53,328 nucleotides of DNA from Dehalococcoidia bacterium. Its GTDB lineage: Bacteria > Chloroflexota > Dehalococcoidia > JAUSIH01. The translations under genes and the position numbers were made by a program. Each line of letters begins with the position of its first letter. Position 1 is the stretch's first letter. Of this stretch, positions 4,687-39,005 are shown piece after piece. A model generated the notes under the pieces. It had not been told where the DNA came from, searched no databases, and saw nothing but the letters and a program-made list of their open reading frames with translations. The stretch covers positions 1 through 53,328 of the forward strand of contig JAUSIH010000053.1 in the NCBI GenBank assembly GCA_030648205.1. The letters run 5' to 3'.

Positions 4687-5640
4687 GTGACTCTCTACCT
4701 GACTGAAGACGACGTCCAGCGCCTGCTGCCCATGCCCGAAGCCGTGGCCGCGGTGGAGGACGCCATGCGCCAGCAGGCCCCCGGCGGCGCGGTCAACCGC
4801 CCGCGTCAGCGGGTGCGCATCCCCGCGGGAACGCTGCACCTGATGGGCGCCGCCCTGCCGCACAAGGGAGTGCTGGGGTTCAAGGCGTACACGGCCATTG
4901 GCCGCAAGATACGCTTCCTCGTCATGCTCTACAGCGCGACGGATGGCAGCCCACTGGCGCTGATGGAGGCTGACCACTTGGGACAGATACGCACGGGCGC
5001 GGCCAGCGGCGTCGCGACGAAGTACATGGCGCGCAAGGACGCGAACGTCGTGGGCGTCATCGGCGCGGGGTACCAGGCGGAGACCCAGGTCACGGCCATG
5101 TGCGCCGTCCGGCCCATCCGCGAGGTGCGGGTGTACAGTCGCACGCCGGAGCGCCGAAGCGCCTTTGCGCAGAAGGTGGCCCGCCAGACGGGCGTGGCGG
5201 TGCGCGCCGTGGACACGCCGGACGAGGCGGTGAAAGGCAGCCACATCCTCGTCACGGCCACGTACTCCCGCGAGCCGGTGTTCAAGGGGGACCTGCTGGA
5301 GAAGGGCGTCCACATGAACATCATGGGGGGCAATGCGCTCATCCGGCGGGAGATAGACGACGTGGCCGTGCGCAGGAGCAACATCATCGTGGTGGACTCC
5401 ATCGAGCAGGCGCGGGTGGAGTCCGGCGACCTCCTCGGCCCGGTGGAGCGCGGCCTGCTGTCCTGGGAGAACTGCCTTGAGATGTGGCAGGTGGTGTCCG
5501 GCCACGTGTCGGGCCGCCGCTCGGACGACGACATCACCATGTTCAAGTCGCATGGCATCGCGCTGTGGGACGTGGCGGCGGCCGCCCACGTCTATGAGCA
5601 GGCCAAGGCAAAGGGCATGGGGCGGGACCTGGGCATCTAG
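4687..5640 (+). CDS. Ornithine cyclodeaminase/mu-crystallin family dehydrogenase
   Basis: A 317-residue protein with the family core LGQIRTGAASGVATKYMAR followed by a Rossmann NAD(P) motif GVIGAGYQAETQV (near residue 125). Members include ornithine cyclodeaminase, alanine dehydrogenase and delta1-pyrroline-2-carboxylate reductase, which cannot be told apart here. An AAGGAGG site precedes the GTG start by four bases. Its TAG stop (5638-5640) lies inside the CTAG that forms the left boundary of the mobile element at 5637-5809. No arginine or proline genes lie nearby. Confidence 0.85.
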   Translation: MTLYLTEDDVQRLLPMPEAVAAVEDAMRQQAPGGAVNRPRQRVRIPAGTLHLMGAALPHKGVLGFKAYTAIGRKIRFLVMLYSATDGSPLALMEADHLGQIRTGAASGVATKYMARKDANVVGVIGAGYQAETQVTAMCAVRPIREVRVYSRTPERRSAFAQKVARQTGVAVRAVDTPDEAVKGSHILVTATYSREPVFKGDLLEKGVHMNIMGGNALIRREIDDVAVRRSNIIVVDSIEQARVESGDLLGPVERGLLSWENCLEMWQVVSGHVSGRRSDDDITMFKSHGIALWDVAAAAHVYEQAKAKGMGRDLGI

Positions 5641-5809
5641 CGTCCTGTAACTGAAATACGCGCACGGAATTGTCATTGCGAGGAGTCCCGACAAGTCGGG
5701 ACGACGAAGCAATCTGGAAGAGGGATGGACCTCGCCGCCAGATTGCCACGGCCCTCCTTCGTCGGGCCTCGCAATGACACTGTGACAAACTTCGGGGACA
5801 CCACACTAG
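5637..5809. mobile_element. CTAG-bounded MITE-like element, copy 1 (173 bp)
   Basis: A non-coding element bounded by CTAG at both ends (5637-5640 and 5806-5809). Just inside each end are blocks shared with copies at 29898-30070 and 38835-39005: one end reads (T)GAAATACGCG..., the other, on the opposite strand, TGTGGTGTCCCCGAAG. Inner long inverted repeats (TTGTCATTGCGAGGA..., CAATCTGG / CCAGATTG, CCTCGCAATGACA) let it fold into a long hairpin. It has no ORF, so any mobility would depend on a transposase elsewhere. The left CTAG provides the stop codon of the preceding gene. Confidence 0.8.
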
Positions 5810-6065
5810 CGCCCTCGTCAAAATTCGCTGGAAAACTTGGGCCGCAGGGCCGCAGGGCGGCCCGCCGGAGGGTCCGGGAGAGCCTGCCCTGAGCGAAGCC
5901 GAAGGGTGTCCTCCCGAATCCGTTCTTTCTCTCCCCACTCTCCGCAAGAGAGGGGGACCGAGGGGGTGAGGTCGTCCGCGCGGCGACGACCACCGTGGGT
6001 TTGCAGCCCCGCGCCAGTAGTTGTGAACCACTACGATCGCCGATTCTCGTCTCCCACATGACCTG
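5810..6065. other. Non-coding stretch with repeat fragments before proS
   Basis: No gene is supported. It contains a REP-like piece (CCTGAGCGAAGCCGAAGGG, about 5888-5906) and a CTCTCCGCAAGAGAGGGGG stem-loop sequence near 5938-5957. These look like dispersed intergenic repeat units rather than coding remnants. Confidence 0.5.
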
Positions 6066-6074
6066 TGCTATGAT
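6066..6074 (+). promoter_or_regulatory. Extended -10 promoter of proS
   Basis: TGCTATGAT forms an extended -10 element (TGn plus TATGAT) with no good -35. The predicted start near 6081 gives a leader of about 70 bases before proS, containing short complementary segments (GGAGA/TCTCC) but no T-box signature. Confidence 0.5.
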
Positions 6075-6150
6075 GGGAAGGCCGTCTCGCGGAGCACGAT
6101 TCCGCTAGGCCGGCAACATCGGAGAATCTCCCTGGGAGGCTGTCGCTTAG

Positions 6151-7875
6151 ATGCGTCTCTCTCAACTGTTCGGCAAGACGCTCCGCCAGGAACCTGCCGA
6201 TGCGGAGACAGCCAGCCACCGGCTGATGCTCAAGGCGGGGCTTATCCATCCCATCGCCGCTGGCGTGTACTCCATGCTGCCCCTGGGCCTGCGGGCCTAC
6301 CGCAAGATCGAGCGCATCATCCGCGAGGAGATGGACGCCGCGGGCGGCCAGGAGCTCTCCATGCCTGCCCTGCAGCCCATCGAGCTGTGGCAGCAGACGG
6401 GCCGCCACGGTTCGTTCGGCCAGACGCTCTTCACCCTTCAGGACCGCAAGGAGCGGCTCCTCTGCCTCGCGCCCACGCACGAGGAGGTCGTTACCACCCT
6501 CGTCAGCCTGAACGTGCAGAGCTACCGCGACCTTCCACAGCTTCTCTACCAGATTCAGACCAAGTTCCGCGACGAGCCGCGCCCCCGCGCGGGCCTCATC
6601 CGCGTGCGTGAGTTCGCCATGAAGGACGCGTACAGCTTCGACGTGGACGCCGACGCGCTGGACGTGACGTACCGGCGCGTCTTCCAGGCCTACAAGAACA
6701 TCTTCGCCCGCTGCGGCCTGCCAGCCGTGCCGGTGGAGGCGGACTCCGGAGCTATCGGCGGGAAGGACAGCCAGGAGTTCATGCTGCTTGCGGAGAGCGG
6801 CGAGGACGAGATACTGCGCTGCTCAGGCTGCGGCTACGCGGCCAACGTGGAGCGCGCCGCCTTCGTGAAGCCGCCCGCGCCGCGGGAGCCGGAGCGCCCG
6901 CTGGAGAAGGTCGCGACGCCCGGCAAGAAGACAATCGAGGAAGTCGCGGCGTTCCTGGGCGTGAAGCCGGAGCAGACGCTCAAGGCGGTCTTCTACGCCG
7001 CCGACGGCAAGGTCGTCTTCGTCGTCATCCGCGGCGACTTGGAGGTCAACGAGGTCAAGCTGAAAAACGCGCTGAAGTGCGCCGACCTGCGTCTGGCCAC
7101 GGACGAGGAGGTCAGAGGCGCGGGACTCGTCGCGGGGTACGCGTCGCCCATCGGCGTCACGGGCGTGCGCGTCGTTGGGGACGACTCCATCGCGCTGGGG
7201 TCCAACCTTGTTGCGGGGGCCAACCTGGAGGGCCATCACTACAAGAACGCGAACTACCCGCGCGACTTCACGGTGGCGCTGCTGACGGATATCGCGAAGG
7301 CGCGGGCGGGCTACATCTGCGCCCGCTGCGGCAAAGCCGCGTTCGTCTCCATGCGCGGCATTGAAGTCGGGCACGTCTTCAAGCTGGGGACTATCTTCAG
7401 CGAGAAGCTAGGCGCGTCGTTCCTGGACAAGGACGGGCAGAAGAAGCCTATCATCATGGGGTGCTACGGCATCGGCGTGGGGCGATTGCTGGCTGCTGCT
7501 GTTGAGCAGAACCACGACGAGAAGGGCATCGCGTGGCCCGCGCCGATCGCGCCCTACCAGGTGCACATGGTGGGGCTCCAGATGGACAATCCGCAGGTAG
7601 GCCCCGTCGCCGAGAAGCTGTACGCCGACCTCCAAGCGGCTGGCCTCGACGTGCTGTTCGACGACCGCGCGGACTCGCCGGGCGTCAAGTTCAACGACGC
7701 CGACCTGCTGGGTATCCCTCTCCGCGTCACGATCAGCCCGCGCACGCTGAAGACGCAGAGCGTGGAGCTGAAGCGGCGCATGGAGGCGCAGGCGCGGAAC
7801 GCGCCGTTGGCGGAGGCGGTGGCCGCGACGAAGCAGACGCTTGACGAGATGCTGCGGGAGGCGACCGGGGCGTAG
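6151..7875 (+). CDS. proS: Proline--tRNA ligase (bacterial type)
   Basis: A 574-residue class II aminoacyl-tRNA synthetase that charges tRNA-Pro. The order is the long bacterial form: catalytic core with motif 2 (FRDEPRPRAGLIRVREFAMKD is split here by its family pattern, around residues 138-158), a YbaK-like editing insertion (about 250-390, including VIRGDLEVNEVKLKNAL), motif 3 GCYGIGVGRLLAAAVEQNHD near residue 440, and the C-terminal anticodon-binding domain. Length matches the usual 565-575 residues. It stands alone behind its own extended -10 promoter and is followed 32 bases later by a small lipoprotein-like ORF. Confidence 0.97.
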   Translation: MRLSQLFGKTLRQEPADAETASHRLMLKAGLIHPIAAGVYSMLPLGLRAYRKIERIIREEMDAAGGQELSMPALQPIELWQQTGRHGSFGQTLFTLQDRKERLLCLAPTHEEVVTTLVSLNVQSYRDLPQLLYQIQTKFRDEPRPRAGLIRVREFAMKDAYSFDVDADALDVTYRRVFQAYKNIFARCGLPAVPVEADSGAIGGKDSQEFMLLAESGEDEILRCSGCGYAANVERAAFVKPPAPREPERPLEKVATPGKKTIEEVAAFLGVKPEQTLKAVFYAADGKVVFVVIRGDLEVNEVKLKNALKCADLRLATDEEVRGAGLVAGYASPIGVTGVRVVGDDSIALGSNLVAGANLEGHHYKNANYPRDFTVALLTDIAKARAGYICARCGKAAFVSMRGIEVGHVFKLGTIFSEKLGASFLDKDGQKKPIIMGCYGIGVGRLLAAAVEQNHDEKGIAWPAPIAPYQVHMVGLQMDNPQVGPVAEKLYADLQAAGLDVLFDDRADSPGVKFNDADLLGIPLRVTISPRTLKTQSVELKRRMEAQARNAPLAEAVAATKQTLDEMLREATGA

Positions 7876-7907
7876 GTTGTCCTGGTTACACCCGGCAGGA
7901 GGAAGCT

Positions 7908-8096
7908 GTGAGGCAGTCTCTCGCCGCAGTCCGCGCCTTTCTTTCCACCCTTGCCTTTGCGGCTTGCGCGTCCCCCGTGGCCGTCCCTTCGCCGACGCCG
8001 TCTTCGAAGCTGAACTTGGGCGCTGAAGCCGGTCTTGCGCGGGCTGCGGCGGGAGCGCTGGCTATTGACCCGCGGGACGATAGACGTACAGCGTGA
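7908..8096 (+). pseudogene. Short lipoprotein-like ORF, probable remnant
   Basis: A GTG at 7908 has a good AGGAGG-type site upstream and opens a 62-residue frame. It begins like a lipoprotein signal (FLSTLAFAACASP) followed by a Pro/Ser-rich spacer, the same design as the start of the alginate-lyase lipoprotein on the other strand. The frame then runs 35 bases into the 3' end of that convergent gene and stops. The good start signals but missing mature domain suggest a truncated lipoprotein gene. A real micro-lipoprotein is possible. Confidence 0.35.
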
Positions 8097-9345
8097 CGTC
8101 GCCGCCGAACCGCCGGGTATTAATCGGCTCCGTCAGGAAGCGACCGAGGTCGGGGCTGGCGTAATGCCGGCGGTACAGCTCCATCCACGCCATGTCTTCG
8201 CTGCCCGGCCTGAATGCCCGCAGGTCTTGCTCCTCGCTGGCGTACGCCTTCACGACTGCCGGGTCATCCAGCGCGCGCAGCAGGAACGCCACCGCGCGGT
8301 GGATATCGCGCCCGTTCACTTTGGCGTCATAGAGGTTTACTCCCTGCCGGTCAGCCAGCTCCGCGACCATCGCCAACGGCGCAATCGAGAAGTTCTGGTA
8401 ATGCAGCGCCCTCTCGTACCGGGCCATTTCCTCGGGCCAGCTTCCGTCGTCCGCCATTCGCGATAAGGCGTCGTAGTACTTCGCCATGCCCCAGCGAAAC
8501 AGCTCGACGTCGTTGCTGACGAGGCCGACGGACGTGGCTTCCAGCGCGCGCCACCATGCGTGGTTGTTGCAGCACGCGCTGCGCCCGCCGGGGAAGCCGA
8601 TCTGTCGGCGGGCGACGCGGCCCAGCCAGCCTTCGATTATCTCACGGTCCGCCGGCGCGACGGCGGGATCGGCGCGGATGACGGAGTACGACAGTGCCGC
8701 GGTCGAGGCCGTCCACTCCACGGTGTACCAGGCCTGCGAGCTTTCCGCGGGGTCGTAGTCCAGCAGCGTGTTCGCCCGCGCCCAATCGCGGAGCGTATCC
8801 ACCATGCACCGGACGTACGACTCTTCGCCGAAGCGGGCGTACAGCGTGGCGAGCAGGGAGAGCCGGTCCTCGAAGGCGTGATACGGCTGCATGGCGGGCG
8901 CGTAGGCTGGATTCGCGGGGCCATGCCCGCCGGAAACGTAGAACGGCGGGATGATCATGCGGCCCTTCGGCGGCTCAGGCCGACCGAGGCGCGCGCAGTC
9001 CCGGGCGGCGGGTATTGACTTGAGCAGGCGCGGGTCGGTCGTCGTGCGCAGGTATTCCCGGCGCGCCCTTACGTCGAAGAATGATGCGTTGGGGTCTCGG
9101 ATGACGGCGCGCGCTGCTGCTTCAGCGCTTGCCGGAGTGGGTGTCGGCGCCGGTTGCGGGCGAGGGGTAGGGGAGGGAGCGGGCCACTGCGTTGGACTCG
9201 GCGCGACAGCAGGTTGGGGCGTAGCAGGCGGCGCGGGAGCCGCATTGGATGTCGGCGCGGCGACAGGAGTCGGCGGGCGGGCGCAGGAGACCAGCAGCGC
9301 CGCGCCGGCAAGCAACGACAGGAGCCGGAACACCATAGTCCGCAT
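8062..9345 (-). CDS. Alginate-lyase-family (PL5-like) lipoprotein
   Basis: A 427-residue secreted lipoprotein. It has a signal peptide with lipobox LVSC (C21), then about 50 residues of Pro/Ala/Thr-rich linker, then an alpha/alpha-toroid domain resembling the Alginate_lyase family. The hallmark NNHAWWRALEA (near residue 257) corresponds to the AlgL NNHxYW active-site motif, and a second helix reads ERALHYQNFSIAPL. Family enzymes cleave mannuronate-rich polyuronides by beta-elimination; true substrate here is uncertain. Its extended -10 lies six bases before the ATG, predicting an almost leaderless mRNA. It is divergent from the SAM-riboswitch unit and convergent with proS. Confidence 0.78.
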   Translation of the reverse strand: MRTMVFRLLSLLAGAALLVSCARPPTPVAAPTSNAAPAPPATPQPAVAPSPTQWPAPSPTPRPQPAPTPTPASAEAAARAVIRDPNASFFDVRARREYLRTTTDPRLLKSIPAARDCARLGRPEPPKGRMIIPPFYVSGGHGPANPAYAPAMQPYHAFEDRLSLLATLYARFGEESYVRCMVDTLRDWARANTLLDYDPAESSQAWYTVEWTASTAALSYSVIRADPAVAPADREIIEGWLGRVARRQIGFPGGRSACCNNHAWWRALEATSVGLVSNDVELFRWGMAKYYDALSRMADDGSWPEEMARYERALHYQNFSIAPLAMVAELADRQGVNLYDAKVNGRDIHRAVAFLLRALDDPAVVKAYASEEQDLRAFRPGSEDMAWMELYRRHYASPDLGRFLTEPINTRRFGGDVTLYVYRPAGQ

Positions 9346-9351
9346 GACAGT

Positions 9352-9360
9352 ATGATAGCA
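9352..9360 (-). promoter_or_regulatory. Extended -10 directly before the alginate-lyase gene
   Basis: On the minus strand TGCTATCAT (TGn plus TATCAT) ends six bases before the ATG at 9345. Transcription would begin at or next to the start codon, leaving no room for a ribosome-binding site. No good -35 is visible. Confidence 0.5.
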
Positions 9361-9408
9361 GCCCCGCGGAGCGCGGGCGGAGGACGGAGGCTATCCGCGT
9401 GGTTCCTA

Positions 9409-9437
9409 TTGACACGGATAGCTCACCCCGTTACGAT
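9409..9437 (+). promoter_or_regulatory. Sigma-70 promoter of the SAM-riboswitch operon
   Basis: A perfect -35 TTGACA (9409-9414) and a -10 TACGAT (9432-9437) lie 17 bases apart. The predicted transcript starts near 9444, about 20 bases before the first stem of the SAM riboswitch. Confidence 0.8.
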
Positions 9438-9465
9438 ATCAGTCGGCCCATAACTGAATAGGCCC

Positions 9466-9593
9466 CTCGCTCTTATCAAGAGTGGTGGAGGGACTGGCCC
9501 GCTGAAGCCCGGCAACCGGTCGGCGCGGCGCTCATACGCTGCACGATACGGTGCCAACTCCAACCCCGCTCGAGGGGGACAGATGAGAGCGAT
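9466..9593 (+). ncRNA. SAM-I (S-box) riboswitch aptamer
   Basis: The conserved S-box core is clear: CTCTTATCAAGAG, then GGTGGAGGGACTGGCCC (kink-turn region), GAAGCCCGGCAACC, GGTGCCAACTCC and finally GATGAGAG. Stem P1 forms from TCGCTCT (9467-9473) and AGAGCGA (9586-9592). The 3' strand of P1 lies in GATGAGAG, which occurs twice (9582-9589 and 9591-9598). Both copies are complementary to CTCTCATC (9617-9624) within the terminator hairpin, giving the alternative antiterminator. SAM binding would stabilise P1 and switch the operon off. Position before mtnA and upstream of metK and ahcY fits known S-box targets. Confidence 0.96.
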
Positions 9594-9606
9594 GAGAGCA
9601 AGGCTC

Positions 9607-9641
9607 AAAGAGACTTCTCTCATCGGGAGGTCTCTTTTGTT
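9607..9641 (+). terminator. Riboswitch-controlled intrinsic terminator
   Basis: AAAGAGACTTCTC (9607-9619) pairs with GGGAGGTCTCTTT (9625-9637), with a few G-U pairs, around a TCATC loop, followed by TTTTGTT. The 5' arm and loop overlap CTCTCATC, the partner of the aptamer's GATGAGAG, so terminator and antiterminator are mutually exclusive. It lies directly before the mtnA start. Confidence 0.9.
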
Positions 9642-9651
9642 GTCAGAGGAT

Positions 9652-10701
9652 ATGAACGCAATCTCCTGGGAAAACGATCGGCTGAAGCTCGTGGACCAGA
9701 CGCGCCTCCCGCGGGAGCGCGTGTACCTGGAGTGCGCTGACTATTCGAGTGTTGTGATGGCCATTCGAGAGATGCGCGTGCGCGGCGCTCCGGCCATCGG
9801 CGTGGCGGGCGCGTACGCCGTGGCGCTGGCCGCGCGGCAACTCGCCGCAGCGTCGCGGCAGACGTTACTGCGCGAGCTGGACCGCGCCTGCGATGAGATA
9901 GCGCGCGCCCGTCCGACGGCGGTCAACCTGTCGTGGGCGGTGGAGCGAGTCCGGCGCGCGGCGCATGAGCAAGGCGACGTGGCCGCCATCCGCGCGTGCG
10001 CGCTGGCCGAGGCCCGGCGTATTCAAGAAGAGGACGAGCAGGCCAATCGCCGTATGGGGCAGCTTGGCGCGGCGCTCATTCCGGAGCGGGCTACTGTGTT
10101 GACCCACTGCAACGCGGGCGCGCTGGCTACGGCGGGCTACGGCACCGCGCTGGGCATTCTGCGCGCCGCGCGAGAGCAGGGCAAGGATGTACGAGTCATA
10201 GCTACGGAGACGCGGCCTTTCCTGCAGGGCGCACGCCTGACAGCGTGGGAGCTGCGGGAGGACGGCTTTGACGTCACGCTCATCACCGACTCCACGGCGG
10301 GCTTCGTCCTCAGCCGAGGAGACGTTGACTGCGTGGTCGTGGGAGCGGACCGCATCGCCGCCAACGGCGACGTGGCGAACAAGATAGGCACGTACACCAT
10401 CGCCGTCCTGGCGAAGGAGAACGGCGTTCCGTTCTACGTGGCCGCGCCCGTCAGCACCGTTGACCTGGCGACGCCAAGCGGCGACGCCATCGCCATCGAG
10501 GAGCGGCCTCCCGAGGAGGTCACGCACATAGCGGGGGTGCCCATCGCCCCGGACGGGGTGCGCGTGCGGAACCCAGCATTTGACATAACGCCTCACAGGT
10601 ACGTCACGGCCATTGTCACGGAGCGCGGGATTGTGCGCGCGCCGTACGGGACAAGCCTGGGGCGCTTGCTACGGCAGGCATCGGCGGCTTCCGTGCGCTA
10701 G
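9652..10701 (+). CDS. mtnA: Methylthioribose-1-phosphate isomerase
   Basis: A 349-residue enzyme that isomerises 5-methylthioribose-1-phosphate to methylthioribulose-1-phosphate in methionine salvage. Family motifs are present: N-terminal [33 protein letters not shown], active-site Cys in [18 protein letters not shown] (near residue 153) and Asp in [19 protein letters not shown] (near 232). ATG 9652 is chosen because it gives the conserved N-terminus and lies after the riboswitch terminator; the frame extending back to 9583 crosses the aptamer. AGAGGA sits unusually close (one base) to this ATG, so TTG at 9640 cannot be excluded. mtnP follows 195 bases later. Confidence 0.95.
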
Positions 10702-10721
10702 GGCTGCTGAAAAAGGAAAGT

Positions 10722-10805
10722 CCAGTCCTTCCCCGGAAGGACTGGCGGGGGGCTGGGGGTGTCCCCCAGATACAAGTTTTACCCCTTTCCTAGATAGGAA
10801 GGGGG
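10722..10805. repeat. Three consecutive stem-loops between mtnA and mtnP
   Basis: CCAGTCCTTCC (10722-10732) pairs with GGAAGGACTGG (10735-10745). CTGGGGG (10753-10759) pairs with CCCCCAG (10763-10769), followed a few bases later by TTTTA. CCCCTTTCC (10782-10790) pairs with GGAAGGGGG. They may lower read-through or process the operon mRNA. The composition resembles intergenic repeat DNA rather than a known riboswitch. Confidence 0.55.
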
Positions 10806-10896
10806 CAGGGGGATGGTCGAAAAGGCTTTTTGATTACCCCGCCAGCGCTGTTCGGGAGAGCGCGGATACGAGCGTCGGACTGATAGAGAGGAAGCT

Positions 10897-11808
10897 ATGG
10901 CGCCACGCCAGGGGGGAAAGCTGAAAGAGGGGGAGAGCGACCGGAGGCGCGCCACCATTGCCGTCATAGGCGGCAGCGGCCTGTACCAGATGGACGGTCT
11001 GACGGACGTGGAGAATGTGCGGGTCAAGACGCCCTTCGGCGATCCCAGCGACGCCATCATCCTGGGGACGCTGGAGGGGCGCCGCGTGGCCTTCCTTCCG
11101 CGCCACGGGCGGGGGCACGTTATCTCGCCCACGGAACTCCCCTCGCGCGCCAATATCTATGCGCTGAAGAGCCTTGGCGTGGAGCGCATCATCTCCGTCA
11201 ACGCCGTGGGCAGCCTGCGGGAGGACATACGGCCCCAGGACATGGTTATCCCCGACCAGGTCATTGACCGGACAAAGAACCGGGTCAACAGCCTCTTTGA
11301 GGGCAGCGGCGTCGTTGTCCACTGCGGCTTCGCCGACCCGTTCTGCGCCGACCTGAGCGGCCTTCTCTACAAAGCGGCGCGGCGGACGCACAGCCGCACC
11401 CATCGCGGCGGCACGTACATCGCGATGGAGGGGCCTCTCTTCTCGACGCGCGCCGAGTCCGAGCTGTACCGCTCGTGGGGAGGCAGCGTCATCGGCATGA
11501 CCGTGCTGCCGGAGGCCAAGCTGGCCCGCGAGGCGGAGATATGCTACGCCAGCCTGTCCTGCTCCACCGACTACGACTGCTGGCGCCCGGAGCACGACGA
11601 TGTGACAGTGGAGATGGTCATCTCCAACCTGCTGAAGAACGTGGCTGTCGCCAAGGGCGTTCTGCGCCGCCTTATCGCGAAGCTGCCGGCGGAGCGGACG
11701 TGCGGCTGCGCGAGCGCCCTTAAGAACGCCATTGTCACGGCGCGGGACAGCATTCCCGCCCGCGCCAGGCGAGACCTGACCCTGTTGCTTGGGAAGTATG
11801 TACAATAA
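10897..11808 (+). CDS. mtnP: S-methyl-5'-thioadenosine phosphorylase
   Basis: A 303-residue nucleoside phosphorylase that splits methylthioadenosine, the by-product of polyamine synthesis and other SAM reactions, into adenine and methylthioribose-1-phosphate, the MtnA substrate. Visible landmarks are the phosphate loop IGGSGLYQMDG, PRHGRGHVISPTELPSRANI, AMEGPLFSTRAES and the MTAP-type specificity segment STDYDCWRPEHDDV (near residue 223), which separates it from ordinary purine nucleoside phosphorylases. The first 20 residues are basic and non-conserved. AGAGGAAG precedes the ATG. It acts one step before the enzyme encoded upstream. Confidence 0.95.
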   Translation: MAPRQGGKLKEGESDRRRATIAVIGGSGLYQMDGLTDVENVRVKTPFGDPSDAIILGTLEGRRVAFLPRHGRGHVISPTELPSRANIYALKSLGVERIISVNAVGSLREDIRPQDMVIPDQVIDRTKNRVNSLFEGSGVVVHCGFADPFCADLSGLLYKAARRTHSRTHRGGTYIAMEGPLFSTRAESELYRSWGGSVIGMTVLPEAKLAREAEICYASLSCSTDYDCWRPEHDDVTVEMVISNLLKNVAVAKGVLRRLIAKLPAERTCGCASALKNAIVTARDSIPARARRDLTLLLGKYVQ

Positions 11809-11847
11809 GATGGCGCTTTGACCTTAATGGCGAGGGAGGGGAGCACC

Positions 11848-12216
11848 ATGGCGACCAGTAAGCGGCAGCCGCGGGAAACCGGCGAGCCTTTTGCAAGGAT
11901 ATCGACTGAGGAGGCGAAGAAGCTCATTGACAAGGGCGGAGTCCAGGTCATTGACACTCGCCGTCCGGACGAATACGTGCTTGGACATGTGCCAGGCGCC
12001 AAGCTCATTCCGGTGGACGAGTTCTTCACCCGCTCCGGGGAGGTGGACAGCGGGAAGCCCGCCCTGTTCATCTGCGCGACCGGCGTGCGCAGCGCCCTGA
12101 CCTGCGAGATGGCGGCGGCCCTGGGCTTCGACGCCTCGTTGCTCTACAACGTCGAAGGTGGGACGGAGGGGTGGATCGCCTGTAGCTACCCTGTGAAGAA
12201 GGGTAAAGATGCATAG
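11848..12216 (+). CDS. Single-domain rhodanese
   Basis: A 122-residue rhodanese-like sulfurtransferase. It has the CH2A-like IDTRRPDEYVLGHVPGAKLIPVDEF and the active-site loop FICATGVRSALT with the persulfide-forming Cys at about residue 76. ATG 11848 is preferred over an upstream TTG because GGAGGGGAG precedes it. It lies 39 bases after mtnP in a riboswitch-led unit. It might handle reduced sulfur released during methionine or methylthio-compound turnover, but sulfur donor and acceptor are unknown. Confidence 0.88.
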   Translation: MATSKRQPRETGEPFARISTEEAKKLIDKGGVQVIDTRRPDEYVLGHVPGAKLIPVDEFFTRSGEVDSGKPALFICATGVRSALTCEMAAALGFDASLLYNVEGGTEGWIACSYPVKKGKDA

Positions 12217-12287
12217 CCCTCGGCGAATTGTTGGTGATCAGAAGCGTCCGGGACGGTGCCCGGCAAGATTTCTCCAGAGAGGAACTC

Positions 12288-12764: not shown

Positions 12765-12768
12765 CGCG

Positions 12769-29897: not shown

Positions 29898-30070
29898 CTA
29901 GTGTAGTGTCCCCGAAGTTCGTTGCCAATGTCATTGCGATCCCCGATGAAATCGGGGCGTGGCAATCTGGTTGCGGGGTACACCCCTCCTCCAGATTGCT
30001 TCGTCCTCCTTCCGCGGAAGGACTCCTCGCAATGACAATTCATACGCGTATTTCAGGGACATTACACTAG
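29898..30070. mobile_element. CTAG-bounded MITE-like element, copy 2 (173 bp, inverted)
   Basis: The same length as copy 1 but in the opposite orientation. CTAG bounds it at 29898-29901 and 30067-30070. The left end reads TGTAGTGTCCCCGAAG, the right end GCGTATTTCAGGGACATTACA, the complement of the GAAATACGC end of copies 1 and 3. Internal hairpin arms begin GTCATTGCGA and end TCGCAATGACA, with CAATCTGG / CCAGATTG in the middle. The right CTAG supplies the stop codon of the minus-strand gene at 30067-30330. Confidence 0.82.
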
Positions 30071-30330
30071 TTGCGGCGCAGGTAGAGGATGAACTCCTCG
30101 TCGCTGACCCTGCGCTTCTCCTTGAGACACAGGATGGTGTACTGGGTGAACATGCGTGCCAGCCCGGAGAACTTGAGGGCGTCCGCGCCAAAGGCGATCT
30201 TGGGCGTGGGCGAGGAGAGGTCCACGGAGATGCCCGACCGCTTGGCTGTGTCTATGGACAGCTCAATCACGGTCCCCGTGGCGCCTTCAATGCGCTGCTT
30301 GATGTGCCTGACGAAGTCTTCGTCTTCCAT
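30067..30330 (-). CDS. Small hypothetical protein (87 residues)
   Basis: I do not recognise the family. The protein is soluble, mixed alpha/beta: an acidic-basic N-terminus (MEDEDFVRHIKQRIEGATG), a middle strand region (IELSIDTAKRSGISVDL, KIAFGADALKF) and a helical, basic C-terminus (MFTQYTILCLKEKRRVSDEE). It has an extended -10 box seven bases before its ATG, so it is probably expressed from a leaderless mRNA. Its UAG stop is formed by the CTAG at the edge of the mobile element. The clean promoter and codon use support a real gene. Confidence 0.65.
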   Translation of the reverse strand: MEDEDFVRHIKQRIEGATGTVIELSIDTAKRSGISVDLSSPTPKIAFGADALKFSGLARMFTQYTILCLKEKRRVSDEEFILYLRRN

Positions 30331-30346: not shown

Positions 30347-30372
30347 AAACCCTCGCCGCCATCCCCGCGGAT

Positions 30373-30419
30373 GCGTACAGGAAAGGGCTTCCACGTGACG
30401 GAAGCCCTTTCCTGTACGC
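30373..30419. terminator. Perfect 19-bp hairpin after the crotonase gene
   Basis: GCGTACAGGAAAGGGCTTC (30373-30391) pairs without mismatch with GAAGCCCTTTCCTGTACGC (30401-30419) around a nine-base loop. It follows the stop of the minus-strand crotonase gene by 25 bases and precedes the small-gene promoter. With the stem itself A/T-tracted (CCTTTCC) but no T-run beyond, it may be a terminator or a processing site. Confidence 0.65.
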
Positions 30420-30444
30420 GCTATTTGGGGGCAAGCGGCGACGC

Positions 30445-31383: not shown

Positions 31384-31457
31384 TGTACGCCTCCTGTGGC
31401 GCGGCTTGGCCTTGCGGAGGCCAGCGCGTCGGGCCCGGGTTAGTGTAGTGTAGCTAG

Positions 31458-31487
31458 ACTATACCGAGCGGCTGCGGACGCTGTCAA
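31458..31487 (-). promoter_or_regulatory. Strong promoter of the crotonase-family gene
   Basis: On the minus strand TTGACA (31482-31487) and TATAGT (31458-31463) are separated by 18 bases. The leader is about 65 bases. Confidence 0.72.
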
Positions 31488-31554
31488 GCGCCTTGAGAGC
31501 AATTTCTCCGCTGGACAAGCTGGCTGGCAAGCCCACGTCCGTATCCGGATGACG

Positions 31555-31560
31555 TATAAT
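31555..31560 (+). promoter_or_regulatory. -10 box of the JAMM protease gene
   Basis: A perfect TATAAT with a predicted start near 31567, 36 bases before the GTG at 31603. The -35 region (around 31532) is poor. The two promoters at 31458-31487 and here are divergent. Confidence 0.5.
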
Positions 31561-31602
31561 GAATAGCTGGAGCGTGTTCGTACATTCCGGAGGGGCATCC
31601 GC

Positions 31603-32016
31603 GTGACTCTGTACCTTGAGAAGCGCCATGTGGACGAGATGATCGCCCACTCCCGTGCGGACGCCCCCCGGGAGTGCTGCGGCATCCTGATAGGCAAAGG
31701 CTCCCGCGTGAGCGAGGCCCGCCGCGCCGACAACACGCTCCACTCCCCGGTGCTGTACCGCATTGACGACAAGCAGTTGCTGGCCGCTATCCGCGAGGCC
31801 GAGAAGAACGGTACGGAGATAGTCGGCTTCTACCATTCCCACACAGCGACCGAGGCCTATCCCTCCCCAACGGACCGCCGGCAGGCCATGGCCGCCTGGC
31901 CGGACGTCTTCTACGTCCTTGTCTCGCTACGCGACGAGCGGAACCCCGTGTTGCGCGCATTCGTCATTGACGAGCGCGGGGAGATATCCGAGCAAACAGT
32001 GCAGATTGAGGGCTAG
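31603..32016 (+). CDS. JAMM/MPN+ metallopeptidase (Mov34/PAD-1 family)
   Basis: A 137-residue zinc peptidase with the full JAMM signature: E24 in PRECCGILIG, then H78-S-H80 and, ten residues further, D91 in HSHTATEAYPSPTD. Small bacterial members cleave the C-terminal extension or isopeptide bonds of ubiquitin-like sulfur carriers (ThiS/MoaD type) in cysteine, thiamine or molybdopterin routes. No such carrier is seen nearby, so the substrate is open. GTG 31603 has GGAGGGG eight bases upstream. Confidence 0.9.
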   Translation: MTLYLEKRHVDEMIAHSRADAPRECCGILIGKGSRVSEARRADNTLHSPVLYRIDDKQLLAAIREAEKNGTEIVGFYHSHTATEAYPSPTDRRQAMAAWPDVFYVLVSLRDERNPVLRAFVIDERGEISEQTVQIEG

Positions 32017-32067
32017 GAGGGCCTAACCTTCCAGCGCAGGCAGCGTTGTTAGGGGTGTGAGGTGTCT

Positions 32068-34377
32068 ATGGCCCTTCGTTGGCTGAAGATAGCTGTCCCC
32101 CTTGCTGCCGTCGCCCTGGCGGGCGGAGGCTACCTGGCCTATAGCCAGGTGGCGAATGCCAAGTCCACCACCGCCGTGAACGTCCAGCAGGTGGATGTCA
32201 GGCGGGGCAATCTGGAGATAGTGGTCAACACCAGCGGCAGCGTGGCCATCCCCACGCGCGCACAGGGCAAGCTGGCATTCGGGGTGGCGGGGAATATCGC
32301 CACCCTTCCCGTGGACACCGGCGACGAGGTCAAAAAGGGCCAGATTCTCGGCAAGTTGGACACCTCCGATCTGGGGCGGGATGTCCAGCAGGCTGAGTTC
32401 AACCTGAAGAACGCTCAGCTCGCGGTGGAGAAGGCCAAGAGCCCCTACACGGAAGGAGACATTGCCAAGGCGGAGGCTAACGTGACGGCCGCCAAGGCCA
32501 ACCTCGCGGCCTCGGTGAGCAATCTTGAAAAAGTTAAGAATCCCTACACGGCGGCTGATATCGCCAAGCAGCGAGCGGTGGTGGCGCAGGCCAAGGCAAA
32601 TCTGCGTACGGCCCAGGGCGCCCTGGACGACTCACGGAACCCGTTCCCCGAGGTGCAGAGCGCGCGCTCTGCCCTGGAGGCCATGGACCGGCAGGTGGGA
32701 ATCGCTGTCGGCGCTCTGCGTCAGACGGCTGCCCCCACGGCGCCCGACGTGGCCCGCGCGCATGACGCTCTGTTCACCGCCGTCTCCAACGCGGATAACG
32801 CCCTGGACTGGATTGACAAGGGCAAGACCAATCAGAAGAACCTCACGGCGGGGCTTGAAACCATCCGTCGGAACGACCTGAATACCATTGGGGCTGAGGC
32901 CACGGCGGTCAAGGCACTCGTGACCGCCGCCGAGCAAAGCCTGGTGACTGCGCAAGGCAGCATCGCCCTCAGCGTTCCGCTCTATAAGGTGGAGGTGGAC
33001 AGGGCACAGGCCATCTACGACCAGACGAAAGCCTCGTTCAACCAGCAACAGGTGTCGCAAGCGGAGATGAGCCGCAAGGCGGCGGACCTTCAAGTGGCCA
33101 TGGACAAGCTTGCTCAGGAGCAAGGCCGGGCCGGCCAGGCGCTGGCGCAGGCCCTCAGGAGCATCTCCACCCTTGCAACAAGCCAGGAGCAACTCTACAA
33201 GGATATTGACAACATGCTAGCGTCCCAGGCGGACCCGACTGATCTGGAGGTCAAACAGAGCCAGGTAAACTCGTCCCAGGCCAACCAGCTGAAGGCGCAG
33301 GAGGACTTGGACAAGCAGTTGAGTGGCGCGGACCCTGTGGACGTGCAAAAGGCCGAGGCTTCGCTCGCCAGCGCACGGGCAAGTCTCAAGACGACGGAGG
33401 AGGAGCTTGCGAAGCTGCAAGCAGGCGGCGACCCGAACGACGTCGCGACCAAAGAGAACCAGCGCTCCAACGCGCAGGTTGCCCTTGACCGCGCCAAGGA
33501 CCAGATCACAAAGGCCACCATGGTGGCGCCTTTTGACGGGGTCATCGCCGCGGTGAGCGTCGAGGAAGGGACCTCCGTAGGCGCTTCAACGGTCGTCCTC
33601 CAGATCGTTGACCCCAGCAAGGCGGAGTTGCACACCAATGTTGATGAGGTGGATGTGCTCCGTCTGCGTCCGGGGCAGATCGCCACGCTCACCATGGACG
33701 CGCTCCCCGGCGTCACGCTCACGGGCAGCGTGCGGACTATTTCATTCCTTGCGACCAGTCAGAGCGGCGTGGTGACCTATGACGTGACCCTGGACATCCT
33801 TCCCACGGAGAGTCCCGCGGGAAGTCAGGTCAGGCGTCCTAACGCTTCAACCGGCGCTGTGGCAGGGTCGGGGGGGCAGCCGGCGCTACGGCGTACGCCC
33901 ACGGCGGGCGCGCCGTCCCAGAGCGGGGCGACGCAAGCGCAGGCAAGCGGCGCGCCGCAGGCATCCGCAACGCCCGGCCAGCCGGCGCCACGGCGCACGC
34001 CTTTGGCGGGCGCTCCACCGCAGAGCGGGGCGACGCAGGCGCCGCGGGCGTCCTCCGGTCTGGGCGTTCCCCTGCGCCAGGGTCTCACCGTCTTGGTGCG
34101 GATAGTCGTGGACCAGCGTGAAAGCGTGCTGCTCGCGCCCGTGCGGGCCGTCCGGCAGTCCGGTCGCGATCGGATTGTGAAGGTGCTGGTCAACGGCCTG
34201 CCGGAGGAGCGCAAGGTCACCATTGGCCTCTCCGACGGGCAAAACGTTGAAGTCTTGGAGGGGTTGGTGGAGGGCGACACCGTGCTCATCGAGCCGATTC
34301 AACGGGCTTCCGCCACGCCCACGACATCCACATTTGGCTTACCCAGCGTCGGCGGAGCGCGGCCGGCTGGCCGCTAG
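32068..34377 (+). CDS. MacA/HlyD-type periplasmic adaptor with very long coiled coil
   Basis: A 769-residue membrane-fusion protein. Order: one N-terminal anchor (residues 8-25), first lipoyl half (about 60-105, GNIATLPVDTGDEVKKGQIL), a very long alpha-helical region (about 110-480) with repeated NPYTAADIAKQRAVVAQAK-type units and Ala/Gln-rich heptads, second lipoyl half (VAPFDGVIAAVSVEEG), beta-barrel, a Pro/Ala/Thr-rich insert with internal repeat (about 595-660), and the membrane-proximal domain. Typical MacA is about 370 residues. ATG 32068 follows GAGG. The ATPase and permease genes follow, forming a MacB-like efflux complex; the elongated helix may span a thick cell envelope. Confidence 0.88.
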   Translation: MALRWLKIAVPLAAVALAGGGYLAYSQVANAKSTTAVNVQQVDVRRGNLEIVVNTSGSVAIPTRAQGKLAFGVAGNIATLPVDTGDEVKKGQILGKLDTSDLGRDVQQAEFNLKNAQLAVEKAKSPYTEGDIAKAEANVTAAKANLAASVSNLEKVKNPYTAADIAKQRAVVAQAKANLRTAQGALDDSRNPFPEVQSARSALEAMDRQVGIAVGALRQTAAPTAPDVARAHDALFTAVSNADNALDWIDKGKTNQKNLTAGLETIRRNDLNTIGAEATAVKALVTAAEQSLVTAQGSIALSVPLYKVEVDRAQAIYDQTKASFNQQQVSQAEMSRKAADLQVAMDKLAQEQGRAGQALAQALRSISTLATSQEQLYKDIDNMLASQADPTDLEVKQSQVNSSQANQLKAQEDLDKQLSGADPVDVQKAEASLASARASLKTTEEELAKLQAGGDPNDVATKENQRSNAQVALDRAKDQITKATMVAPFDGVIAAVSVEEGTSVGASTVVLQIVDPSKAELHTNVDEVDVLRLRPGQIATLTMDALPGVTLTGSVRTISFLATSQSGVVTYDVTLDILPTESPAGSQVRRPNASTGAVAGSGGQPALRRTPTAGAPSQSGATQAQASGAPQASATPGQPAPRRTPLAGAPPQSGATQAPRASSGLGVPLRQGLTVLVRIVVDQRESVLLAPVRAVRQSGRDRIVKVLVNGLPEERKVTIGLSDGQNVEVLEGLVEGDTVLIEPIQRASATPTTSTFGLPSVGGARPAGR
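33877..34041 (+). repeat. Two-copy 63-bp repeat inside the adaptor gene
   Basis: A 63-base unit at 33877-33939 recurs at 33979-34041 (period 102). It encodes QPALRRTPTAGAPSQSGATQ and QPAPRRTPLAGAPPQSGATQ. The region is low-complexity and lies between the beta-barrel and membrane-proximal segments, suggesting a flexible insert grown by duplication. Confidence 0.8.
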
Positions 34378-34406
34378 AGCCAGACCCTTTTCGACGGGAG
34401 TGCTTC

Positions 34407-35147
34407 GTGATTGAACTGCACGATATCACCAAGGTCTATCACATGGGCACTACGGAGGTGCGTGCGCTCCGAGGCGTCAGCCTGAGCATCCGAGACGGCG
34501 AGATGGTGGCTATCATGGGCCCCTCTGGCTCGGGCAAGTCCACTCTCATGCACCTTCTGGGCTGTCTGGACAAGCCCACGTCTGGGTCTTACATTCTGGG
34601 CGGAGCGGAGGTGAGCCGCCTTTCCGATGACCAGCTTGCTGTCGTGCGTAACCGCAAGATAGGCTTTGTGTTCCAGGGATTCAACCTGCTCAGCCGATTG
34701 GACGCCCTCGGCAACGTGGAGCTTCCCCTCGTGTATGCCGGTATTCGCGATCGGCGGAAGCGGGCAATGGAGGCTCTGGAGCGGGTAGGAATCGCGGATC
34801 GCGCGCATCACCGTCCGTCGGAGATGTCAGGCGGCCAGCAGCAGCGCGTGGCCATCGCTCGCGCTATCGTGACCGACCCCGCCGTCCTCATGGCGGACGA
34901 GCCTACGGGCAACCTCGACACCAAGACGAGCAGCGAGATCATGCACATCTTCCTGGAGCTAAACATCAAGGAGGGCATGACCGTGATCCTGGTGACACAT
35001 GAGAGCGACATCGCCCAGTACGCGGAGCGGATTATTATGCTCCGGGACGGGCTTGTCCATCGGATAGAGCAGGTGACGAAGAGGTCTGGTGAGGATGTGA
35101 TCAGAGCCGCAGTTCCGGCCCGCGTGACGCTCGGCCAGCCGCGCTAG
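34407..35147 (+). CDS. ABC transporter ATP-binding protein (MacB/LolD-like)
   Basis: A 246-residue ATPase. Walker A GPSGSGKST (near residue 38), Q-loop VFQGFNLL, signature MSGGQQQRVAIARA (near 140), Walker B VLMADEPTGNLD and the H-loop VTHESD are all intact. The YHMGTTEVRALRGVSLSI start and NLD ending of Walker B are typical of the MacB/LolD export group, which powers mechanotransmission rather than ordinary transport. The GTG start lies 29 bases after the adaptor stop. It should pair with the FtsX/MacB-type permease at 35290. Confidence 0.95.
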   Translation: MIELHDITKVYHMGTTEVRALRGVSLSIRDGEMVAIMGPSGSGKSTLMHLLGCLDKPTSGSYILGGAEVSRLSDDQLAVVRNRKIGFVFQGFNLLSRLDALGNVELPLVYAGIRDRRKRAMEALERVGIADRAHHRPSEMSGGQQQRVAIARAIVTDPAVLMADEPTGNLDTKTSSEIMHIFLELNIKEGMTVILVTHESDIAQYAERIIMLRDGLVHRIEQVTKRSGEDVIRAAVPARVTLGQPR

Positions 35148-35179
35148 TGCGTAGTTGCGAAAAAGCGCGGTATGAAAAG

Positions 35180-35212
35180 CCGCTCATGGTGAGCTCGTCG
35201 AAGGGTGAGCGG
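35180..35212. repeat. REP-like palindrome between ATPase and permease genes
   Basis: CCGCTCA (35180-35186) pairs with TGAGCGG (35206-35212) around a segment containing GAGCTCGTCGAAGG. The wording matches the family seen at 4005-4060. It sits within the 142-base gap between two genes of one transporter. Confidence 0.55.
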
Positions 35213-35289
35213 GCCTGGGGCAAACCTGGTGTACGTGAACTTACGCAACCGAGTGCTAACATGCAGATCGTAAGCTGGAGTCCAGACTG

Positions 35290-36534
35290 ATGAACGTATT
35301 TGAGAGCCTCTCCATAGCCCTCCAGGCGCTGGGCAGCAACAAGCTGCGCTCCAGCCTGACCGTGCTGGGCATCGTCATTGGCGTGGCGGCGGTCATCTCG
35401 CTCATGTCCATCGGCCGCGGCAGCCAGGCGTCTGTCACCTCCGCGGTCCAGGCTGTAGGCTCCAATCTGCTCTTCGTCCGGTCCGGCGCCCAGACTGTGG
35501 CTGGCGTGCGCGGGCAGCAAGGCTCGGTCCAGACGCTCACGCTGGACGACGCCGAAGCCCTGGCGGACCCCATCACCGCGTCCGCCGTGGCCAAAGTAGC
35601 CCCGGAGCTTACCACGGGCGCTCGTATCGTAGCCCAGGGCCAGAACGTGTCAACCCGCGTGGTGGGCGTGACGCCTGACTATGCGGACGTACGCAACCTC
35701 AGCCTGGCGGAGGGGTCATTTATTACGGACCAGAACATACAGGCGCGTTCCGCCGTGATTGTCCTGGGCGCCACAGTGGCCCAGAACCTTTTCGGCGACA
35801 GCAGCCCGATTGACCAGACTATCCGCGTGAGCAACCGGCCGTTTCGAGTCATCGGAGTGCTCCAGCCGAAGGGGGGCAGCTTCCTGGGGTCTCAGGACGA
35901 CATGGTCCTTGCGCCCCTGACAACCGTGCGTTACCGGCTCTTTTCCCAGCGCACCGCTCAGGGAGCTATTAACGTGCAGCTCATCAGCGTGCAGGTTACA
36001 GACGAGAGCCAGCTTGACGCCGCGAAGGAGCAGATCTCAAGCATTCTGCGCGAGCGGCACAACATCAGCGGAGACGATGACTTTACGGTCACCAGCCAGC
36101 AGGACATTCTGGCTACTTTTGGCCAGATCACTGGCGTGCTCACCGTCTTCCTGGGGAGCGTCGCCGGCATATCGCTGGTGGTGGGCGGCATTGGCATCAT
36201 GAACATCATGCTGGTGTCCGTGACAGAGCGCATCCGTGAGATAGGCATTCGGAAGGCGGTTGGCGCCCGGCGCAGGGACATCCTGCTGCAGTTCCTAATC
36301 GAGGCGACGACGCTCAGCCTGCTAGGCGGCGCCCTCGGCGTGGGGGCCGGTTGGGGCCTCGCTCAGCTATTCGCCACCCAGCAGATTAATGGGCAGCAGA
36401 TTCAGACACAGGTCTCGCTGGACGTGGTGGCGATGGCCCTGGCAGTGTCCGTGATGACGGGGCTTTTCTTCGGCATCTACCCGGCCTACCGTGCGGGCCG
36501 TCTGGACCCTATTGAGGCGCTGCGGCACGACTAG
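35290..36534 (+). CDS. MacB/FtsX-family ABC transporter permease
   Basis: A 414-residue permease with one N-terminal transmembrane helix (LTVLGIVIGVAAVISLMSIG), a large extracytoplasmic MacB_PCD domain (about residues 50-245) and three C-terminal helices with the FtsX-type motif ERIREIGIRKAVGARRRDIL. With the adaptor and ATPase upstream it forms a tripartite-like exporter for antibiotics, peptides or lipids; cargo is unknown. Its TAG stop lies in a CTAG that also encodes, on the opposite strand, the stop of the convergent GGDEF gene, so the two genes overlap by four bases. Confidence 0.93.
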   Translation: MNVFESLSIALQALGSNKLRSSLTVLGIVIGVAAVISLMSIGRGSQASVTSAVQAVGSNLLFVRSGAQTVAGVRGQQGSVQTLTLDDAEALADPITASAVAKVAPELTTGARIVAQGQNVSTRVVGVTPDYADVRNLSLAEGSFITDQNIQARSAVIVLGATVAQNLFGDSSPIDQTIRVSNRPFRVIGVLQPKGGSFLGSQDDMVLAPLTTVRYRLFSQRTAQGAINVQLISVQVTDESQLDAAKEQISSILRERHNISGDDDFTVTSQQDILATFGQITGVLTVFLGSVAGISLVVGGIGIMNIMLVSVTERIREIGIRKAVGARRRDILLQFLIEATTLSLLGGALGVGAGWGLAQLFATQQINGQQIQTQVSLDVVAMALAVSVMTGLFFGIYPAYRAGRLDPIEALRHD

Positions 36535-38807
36535 GGCGGCTGTCGTGGCGTCGCGTCGCCCTTGCTCGTCCTGCTCTGGTAGAGGGCCGCGTCCGCCGCG
36601 GAGAAGAGTGCGGACGACGTCTGGCCGTCGAGCGGGAATGTGGCCAGACCCCAGGAGATGCCCGGCAGCGGCACCTCTTTCCCGCCGGTCTCAAGCCTCG
36701 GCTCCTGGCACTTGAAGGCCTGCGCCGCGCGCTGGACCACCGTCTCCGCCGCCTCTTTCGTCGCCTCCGGCATGATCACCACGAACTCGTCTCCGCCGTA
36801 GCGCGCCGTCACGTCCGAGCCGCGCATCTCGCGCCGCAGCACGGCGCCCACGCGCTGCAAGACGGTGTCGCCCGCCAAATGGCCGTAATTATCGTTGATC
36901 TGCTTGAGGCGGTCTATGTCCAGCACCGCCAGTGTTAGAGGCTCCTTGAGCCGCCTGGCGCGGGCTATCTCCTCCTCCAGCCGCTGTTTGAAGTAGCGGT
37001 GGTTGTGCAGCCCGGTCAGGGAGTCCGTGACCGCCGCCTCCGCGGTCTGCCTATGCAGCACGGCGACCTCCAGCATCAGGCCGATGGAGGGGACCAGCGC
37101 CCGCGTTAGCCGCAGGTCTTCTTCGGTGAAGCCGTTCGGCTCCGCGGTCTCCATCACCACGAGGCCGTTGACCTCGCTCTCGTGGCGCAAGGGCAGCAGG
37201 ATGGCTGCGCCGCCGGCAAAAAGCAGCTCGGCGAAGGCGGGTATGTCGCCCGTGCCGGTGAGAAGGGCAGGGTCGCCGGTTCCCAGGGCCTCTGTTACCG
37301 GCCCTGCCAGTGGAGTCACGCGCTTCCCGCCGTGGTCGCTCCACCGCCCCATGCCGCAGGCGACCACGAAGGTCTCTTTGGTGGCGCGGAACAGGAAGGC
37401 TTCGCTCGAACACGGGATGGCCTCTTGCAGAATCTCGCATACGCGTTTGCTCAGCGTTTCCATGTTCAGCACCGCGCTGACGTCTCCGCCGAGGCGCAGC
37501 AACGCGGTGGCCACCTTCTGCTGGGTGCTTGGCCGCATGTCCAGCGCCCAGGGCAGGGGTATCGCCGCCAGGGGACGTCCCGCGTCAACGCGAGTGCGCC
37601 CTGCCGAAGTGGGAGGCGGGAGTGTCACAAGACCCTTGCGCCAGGTCTCGGCAAGGGACTGGACCACGCGCGGGTCGAACTGCGAGCCGGCCATGCGTCG
37701 CAGCTCCGCCAGGGCCTGCTCAGGAGAGAGCCTTCCGTTCATTGTCATCGCCTCAAAGGCGTCCGCCACCGCGAGGATGCGCGCGCCCAGGGGTATGGCT
37801 TCGCCGGACAGGCCGTCCGGGTAACCCGTTCCATCGACGAACTCGTGGTGGTGCCGCACAAGAGGCAGGACATGCTGCATTACGCCCGTTGCCGCCAGTA
37901 TCTCAACGCCGACGAGGGGATGGCGCATGATCTGGGCCTGTCGCACCGGGTCCAGGGGAACGGTCTGGCTGATCGTATCCTGTGGCAGCAGCGCCATGCC
38001 CACGTCACAGACCAGCGCCGCGTCGCGAATGGTCTCCGTCTCCATCGGGCCCACGCGCATCTCCCGGGCGATGGCCGTGGCGTGCCGCGCGATGCGCTCT
38101 CCCTCGCCAACCGCTTGCGGCGCGTGCGCCCCCACCGTGGTGGTCAGCGTCCGCACTACCGCCATGTGGCTGGAGCGCAGGGCGTCGCGCTGGCGTGTAG
38201 AGATCAGGTATGTGGTGAGGAACATCAGGATGGACAGCGCGAAGGTGTGGAACAGCAGCGCCATCAGGAGGAACGATGGGTTGTTGTACGGGTTGGGAGC
38301 GCCCGCAAGGACATATGGTCGAGGAATGACGCCCGTATAGCTCAGCCAGGCATGGCCCCATAGCAAGACAAGGGTCGCCGCGAACGCCACCTGGGTGCCT
38401 CTCCCCCGAAGGACCACGTCGGGCCTCATGACAACGATAAGGTAGAGCCAGGGGAAAAGGCTGACGAGGCCGCCCGTCAGGTAGATGAAAGTGGTGACCA
38501 CCAGTACGTCCACCGCGACAACGACCCACGACCGGACAACTGATAAGGGGGTGCGCCGCGCCCAGAACCACGCGAGTCCGTGCACCGCCAGGGCGAGGGC
38601 GTAGAGGACATAGACAGGGACGGGGTCAAAGCCGGGGAAAAACGGCGCGCCAAAGAATACGATGACTGTGGTTATGGTGATGAGGCTGGCGCGAACGATG
38701 ATGCCGTAGCGAGTCACGTAGGCGATGGACATGGCCCGCCCCCACTCGCTCTCCACAAGACCGTCCGTCGGCTTTGGCGCTCCGGAGTCGGGCTTCCGCA
38801 TCCCCAT
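36531..38807 (-). CDS. Membrane GGDEF protein with degenerate HD-GYP and GAF domains
   Basis: A 758-residue signalling protein. Order: about six transmembrane segments (residues 30-215), an HD-GYP-like domain (about 225-375), a GAF-like sensor (about 430-575) and a C-terminal diguanylate cyclase (about 590-745) with intact active site RYGGDEFVV. In the HD-GYP part the motif HHEFVDGTGYPDGLSG is good, but the HD doublet is altered: ALVCDVGMALL where LHDIGK-type is expected (His to Cys, Lys to Met). It probably makes cyclic di-GMP, while phosphodiesterase activity is doubtful. The last codon overlaps the permease stop. Confidence 0.9.
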   Translation of the reverse strand: MGMRKPDSGAPKPTDGLVESEWGRAMSIAYVTRYGIIVRASLITITTVIVFFGAPFFPGFDPVPVYVLYALALAVHGLAWFWARRTPLSVVRSWVVVAVDVLVVTTFIYLTGGLVSLFPWLYLIVVMRPDVVLRGRGTQVAFAATLVLLWGHAWLSYTGVIPRPYVLAGAPNPYNNPSFLLMALLFHTFALSILMFLTTYLISTRQRDALRSSHMAVVRTLTTTVGAHAPQAVGEGERIARHATAIAREMRVGPMETETIRDAALVCDVGMALLPQDTISQTVPLDPVRQAQIMRHPLVGVEILAATGVMQHVLPLVRHHHEFVDGTGYPDGLSGEAIPLGARILAVADAFEAMTMNGRLSPEQALAELRRMAGSQFDPRVVQSLAETWRKGLVTLPPPTSAGRTRVDAGRPLAAIPLPWALDMRPSTQQKVATALLRLGGDVSAVLNMETLSKRVCEILQEAIPCSSEAFLFRATKETFVVACGMGRWSDHGGKRVTPLAGPVTEALGTGDPALLTGTGDIPAFAELLFAGGAAILLPLRHESEVNGLVVMETAEPNGFTEEDLRLTRALVPSIGLMLEVAVLHRQTAEAAVTDSLTGLHNHRYFKQRLEEEIARARRLKEPLTLAVLDIDRLKQINDNYGHLAGDTVLQRVGAVLRREMRGSDVTARYGGDEFVVIMPEATKEAAETVVQRAAQAFKCQEPRLETGGKEVPLPGISWGLATFPLDGQTSSALFSAADAALYQSRTSKGDATPRQPP

Positions 38808-38834
38808 GCCTCGCTGCCGCCGGAGGGTAGGCGG

Positions 38835-39005
38835 CTAGTGTCCCGTTTCGGAAATACGCCTACGATTTGTCATTGCGAGGACTCCGGCTTGCCGGAGGAC
38901 GAAGCAATCTGGAGGAAGGGCGCGCCCCGCAGCCAGATTGCCACGGCCCTCCTTCGTCGGGCCTCGCAATGACATCGACGGCGTACTTCGGGAACACCAC
39001 ACTAG
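38835..39005. mobile_element. CTAG-bounded MITE-like element, copy 3 (171 bp)
   Basis: The same orientation as copy 1. CTAG lies at 38835-38838 and 39002-39005. The left end reads TGTCCCGTTTCGGAAATACG, the right end GTACTTCGGGAACACCACA. The long internal inverted repeat (TTGTCATTGCGAGGACTCC / GGGCCTCGCAATGACA) and CAATCTGG/CCAGATTG are conserved, with compensating differences in the variable arms. The right CTAG supplies the stop codon of citramalate synthase. Confidence 0.82.

Follow-up and report, generated by a model that had tools for sequence, protein, structure and literature searches.

Three short elements, E1 to E3, lie in the window, by which we mean the whole stretch of 53,328 nucleotides that was analysed, and each of them carries the UAG stop codon of an adjacent gene within one of its two border CTAGs (Table 1). 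The 87-aa gene next to E2 had no match in a Pfam search, while the domains of the gene next to E3 are consistent with cimA. The closest relatives of the cimA-like gene are at most 70% identical among 40 genomes of the class and at most 66% identical among 80 GTDB loci, and are therefore too distant for an insertion-site comparison; the 3' ends read in those distant relatives were without the element, which shows absence only. Judging by the named relatives of this gene, the class is Dehalococcoidia or a close neighbour of it. Apart from these genes, a SAM riboswitch (RF00162, 77.9 bits) was found at window positions 9470-9589, upstream of a gene starting near 9583/9652.

Table 1. Positions of the CTAG-bordered elements, their hairpin cores and the genes whose stop codons lie in their borders (window coordinates).
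Feature	Position	Strand	Remarks
OCD_Mu_crystall gene (ornithine cyclodeaminase/mu-crystallin family)	4687..5640	+	317 aa; PF02423, 242 bits; UAG 5638-5640 (+) in left CTAG of E1
E1	5637..5809	+	173 bp including border CTAGs 5637-5640 and 5806-5809
E1 hairpin core, long	5672..5778	+	GTCATTGCGAGG ... CCTCGCAATGAC, inner variable stem-loop between
E2	29898..30070	-	173 bp including border CTAGs 29898-29901 and 30067-30070
E2 hairpin core	29930..30036	-	
87-aa gene	30067..30330	-	coding score 43.6; UAG 30067-30069 (-) in right CTAG of E2
E3	38835..39005	+	171 bp including border CTAGs 38835-38838 and 39002-39005
E3 hairpin core	38869..38973	+	
HMGL-like/LeuA_dimer gene, cimA-like	39002..40609	-	535 aa; Pfam HMGL/LeuA_dimer; UAG 39002-39004 (-) in right CTAG of E3

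The preliminary description of this DNA had presented the three elements as MITE-like, flanked by CTAG on both sides and with the neighbour's UAG in one border, and all of this was confirmed, with CTAG at 6/6 borders. E2 is inverted relative to both E1 and E3, and E2 and E3 are 79-81% identical to E1, with a mean column identity of 89% across all three. Their terminal repeats are of the CTAGTGTNNTGTCYCNGAA type with left and right sub-ends unlike each other, and E1 forms one long hairpin with a fold of -80.7 kcal/mol (z -6.9 vs shuffles). The inner stem-loop differs between copies by paired changes (GC/UA/CG at one pair; alignment A2, columns 49-66), which suggests either template-switch correction between the arms or selection on the hairpin.

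The three elements belong to a family far larger than expected by chance, since the own genome yielded 51 BLAST matches to E1, and the end pattern CTAGTGTNNTGTCCCNGAA with up to 3 mismatches gave 98 matches there vs 17 for the reversed control. In the own-genome assembly (2.69 Mb in 120 contigs, 95% complete) we resolved about 48 complete copies, without a transposase gene and mostly of 140-220 bp. No copy exceeds about 90% identity to E1 over most of its length, thus the family looks old in the lineage. The same ends, hereafter A-type (genomes of the class are given as G-numbers and loci as L-numbers), occur with at most 1 mismatch in 20 of 393 class genomes scattered over families, with up to 32 matches of the end pattern per genome vs 0-1 for the reversed control. 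CTAG also terminates at least four additional short families, the GTTCTGTTGACA, AAGTCATTTCAAAA, TACCTASTTGCGAA and TGTAGTGCTTCC types. The families form head-to-tail arrays in which neighbours share one CTAG (A-B-D at L304 4613-4955, C-A-B at L015 1504-1798), an arrangement that would arise if every insertion provided a new CTAG target. In families B and C (L015, L018, L022), the cores contain CCCTGAGCTTGTCGAAGGG-type palindromes, a REP-like repeat inside CTAG-bordered elements.

Judged by the terminal sequences, the likely partner of these elements is an IS630 transposase and not an IS5 one. In genome G100, two matching ends, CTAGTGTCCTGTCTCTAAAATACGTTG and CTAGTGTCTTGTCTCCGAAGTTCGC, lie 1.17 kb apart around an IS630 transposase (NF033545, 226.6 bits at a cut-off of 100; DDE_3, PF13358) and reproduce the unlike sub-ends of the MITEs, with ...GAAATACG or AAAATACG on one side and ...CCGAAGTTCG on the other. 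A TGA in the conserved SxWLN region breaks the transposase gene, which makes this copy a probably inactive one. MITEs and IS630 elements thus have terminal repeats in common at both ends in G100 and at one end in G196, where the A-type end CTAGTGTCTAGTCCCTGAAATAGC stands about 50 bp before the start of an IS630 transposase in a cut and frame-disrupted copy. Among the IS630 loci found by a protein search, nine more have paired ends, for which only TA and not CTAG was required, and all nine have CTAG on both sides; eight of them are in other class genomes, and the ninth is the own-genome element at C46:137901-138991. This element has other ends, CTAGTACTCAGTCAC, and two overlapping reading frames, and its right CTAG coincides exactly with the end of the contig. 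An IS630 fragment with the end CTAGTGTAGTGCTTCC (CTAGTGTAGTGCTTCCTAAATAGC) is present at C61, and an intact IS630 with A-type ends was not found in the own genome as assembled (95% complete, 120 contigs). As for other transposases, an IS481/IS3 partner was rejected because the five own-genome rve loci (L060-L064) are without matching ends.

The mobilisation of the elements had initially been attributed, as a possibility, to an IS5-group transposase acting at YTAR or CTAG with a 4-bp duplication. In favour of this, IS5 also uses CTAG-like targets, and CTAG does stand on both sides of the elements. However, the element ends match IS630 elements, neither of the two IS4/IS5-type loci of the own genome, which were searched for by PF01609 only, has A-type ends, and the borders read CTAG and not CTAA or TTAG apart from rare exceptions, so we regard an IS5 mover as very unlikely. 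MITEPsy1 of Pseudomonas syringae (PMC3189936), a MITE of about 100 bp that inserts at and duplicates CTAG or YTAA, would favour IS5, as it is thought to derive from ISPsy2 (table entry 'IS5?'), but its end sequences differ from ours. A further precedent is IS630 of Shigella, as the title of Tenzen and Ohtsubo 1991 (cited in PMC2170065) reports that an IS630-associated composite transposon prefers TA in 5'-CTAG-3'. IS630 shares with our system the CTAG target, the transposase family NF033545 and a size typical of the family for the 1.17-kb partner, whereas the abundant form here is a 0.17-kb non-autonomous hairpin, with a probable duplication of TA. The Tc1/mariner/IS630 elements, among them ISY100 (PMC2170065), are likewise a cut-and-paste family, and ISY100 duplicates TA on insertion; it is described as inserting at TA, whereas here TA is almost always preceded by C and followed by G. 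The MITEs and RU repeats of Coxiella and enterobacteria (PMC5896051, PMC2759123) are also short hairpin mobile repeats between genes, but their abstracts mention no CTAG target or landing at stop codons.

We therefore consider E1-E3 to be, very probably, non-autonomous MITEs of the IS630 family (Tc1/mariner-like) that target CTAG and are moved in trans, with selection subsequently keeping the copies at stops. An IS630 transposase would act on the CTAGTGTNNTGTCYCNGAA-type terminal repeats and carry the MITEs into CTAG, and their position at gene ends would follow from the insertion of this transposase family at CTAG. CTAG mostly holds at the borders of the 48 complete copies as a whole, with rare exceptions: the outer base is C in 89/96 and the inner base G in 91/96 borders. 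CTAG on both sides fits duplication of either TA or CTAG. The border variants at L070, L080, L086 and L089 need fewer changes under TA duplication and none favours 4 bp, and because of the precedent of the IS630 family it is likely that insertion would duplicate the central TA only.

An insertion at a CTAG stop would leave the reading frame and the stop unchanged, so that copies at such sites should survive, and selection on the stop would then hold the CTAG on the gene side while the far copy drifts. In agreement with the earlier proposal that the ORF stays intact, the gene-side border has kept a stop in 25/25 copies with a single associated gene (in 4 of them in altered form), whereas CTAG persists at the far border in 16/25 (p 0.0016 vs gene side). 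The same borders bear on whether CTAG and UAG belong to the element, so that a stop would arise when it entered coding sequence close to the end of a gene. Under duplication of TA alone, the element's first base would be the G of UAG, and L089 (CTAG/CTAA) and L086 (GTAG/CTAG) resemble landings at CTAA and CTAC. However, TA is still followed by G at the far border in 23/25 stop-associated copies, from which it follows that the UAG stop predates the insertion. An origin of the stops from the elements is thus very unlikely, and the initial wording that each element supplies the stop of its neighbour was mostly misleading. The far borders of stop-associated copies have decayed mostly to CCAG in the gene sense (5/9); a change from CTAG to CCAG is expected of Vsr-like very-short-patch repair, which could also explain the depletion of CTAG described below.

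How far the stop association exceeds expectation depends on base rates, which we took from 444 kb of the 2.69-Mb genome, with genes called by a home-made codon-usage caller. UAG accounts for 234 of the 412 stops in this sample (57%), 88/412 genes, about a fifth, end in CTAG, and CTAG as a whole is depleted (319 seen vs 597 predicted by a Markov estimate based on the counts of CTA, TAG and TA). With recognised mobile ends removed, the native CTAG sites comprise 75 stops, 119 intergenic and 74 coding sites, and stops are 39% of the non-coding ones. Because coding sequence contains few CTAGs, while UAG leads among the stops and roughly one gene in five ends in CTAG, many of the CTAGs at which an insertion does no harm are stops. 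Exactly at a stop we found 26/48 copies (54%) vs 39% of native non-coding sites (Fisher p 0.07); with any border stop included, the figure is 27/48, with p about 0.03 at lower gene-calling thresholds and lower with stricter calling. The three out of three in the window are hence a favourable sample. In five other genomes, 14/29 insertions vs 48/183 native sites are at stops (p 0.026). A test restricted to copies with both borders CTAG (15/21 at stops) was rejected, as one of the two borders is shielded by selection on the stop. Most of the stop association is base rate and follows from the choice of CTAG as target, its depletion and the high share of UAG among stops. What is left is a modest excess that target choice alone does not fully explain.

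This excess could reflect true targeting, i.e., a transposase or a host factor, such as gene-end transcription or termination, that directs the elements to UAG beyond CTAG. The Mantel-Haenszel odds ratio of 2.1 over native non-coding CTAG in six genomes (p 0.004) argues for it, as does the stability of the own-genome excess to gene-calling thresholds. On the other hand, some 45% of copies lie away from stops, with 0/3 at stops in G110 and 2/10 in G381, and the roughly twofold odds excess can come from selection alone. Selection against insertions in leaders and promoters, missed genes, unrecognised and hence unmasked mobile CTAGs in the control and better-kept stop-side borders would all raise the excess in the same direction. 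We infer selection as the cause and consider direct targeting of stops unlikely. A further explanation would have the elements kept for host benefit as functional 3' hairpins, either terminators or RNA stabilisers; the strong fold, the paired changes in the inner stem and the position at gene ends are in its favour. Yet no T-run lies beside the stem, about half of the copies are elsewhere, both orientations occur and the same CTAGs also hold stacked elements of other MITE families, which makes such a role quite improbable. The preliminary idea of a safe-insertion strategy at UAG stops survives in weakened form, the excess speaking for it and the predominance of base rate against it. A literature search found no published link between such insertions and stop codons. 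Our best reading is an emergent safe harbour produced by CTAG targeting and selection, and not a demonstrated active preference for stops.

UAG is the commonest stop in the window, where it ends at least about two thirds of the genes called, which is unusual for a GC-rich bacterium. Across the class the UAG share ranges from 0 to 0.75 in small samples. In stretches not chosen for elements, its mean was 0.53 in 11 genomes with A-type ends vs 0.34 in 33 without them (p 0.001), with few genes per genome and kinship ignored. Within a GC content of 0.58-0.68, the share was 0.55 in genomes with at least 6 ends vs 0.38 (p 0.02), in an exploratory analysis in which several comparisons were tried. That genomes with A-type ends use more UAG stops is at present only a lead. 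We hypothesize, tentatively and with the odds against it, that the IS630-type elements of Dehalococcoidia are coupled to stop usage, in that UAG-rich genomes carry more CTAG MITEs by way of harmless CTAG stops, or that element activity favours UAG; the machinery may even prefer gene ends beyond CTAG.

Our results show that a simple target rule of four bases is enough to bring a parasite to gene ends, with no need for a stop-codon sensor, and the base rates obtained here provide a yardstick for claims of 'safe' insertion. Should the relation of UAG usage to element load persist once ancestry is corrected for, the choice of stop codon would be a host property determining the carrying capacity for a transposon family.
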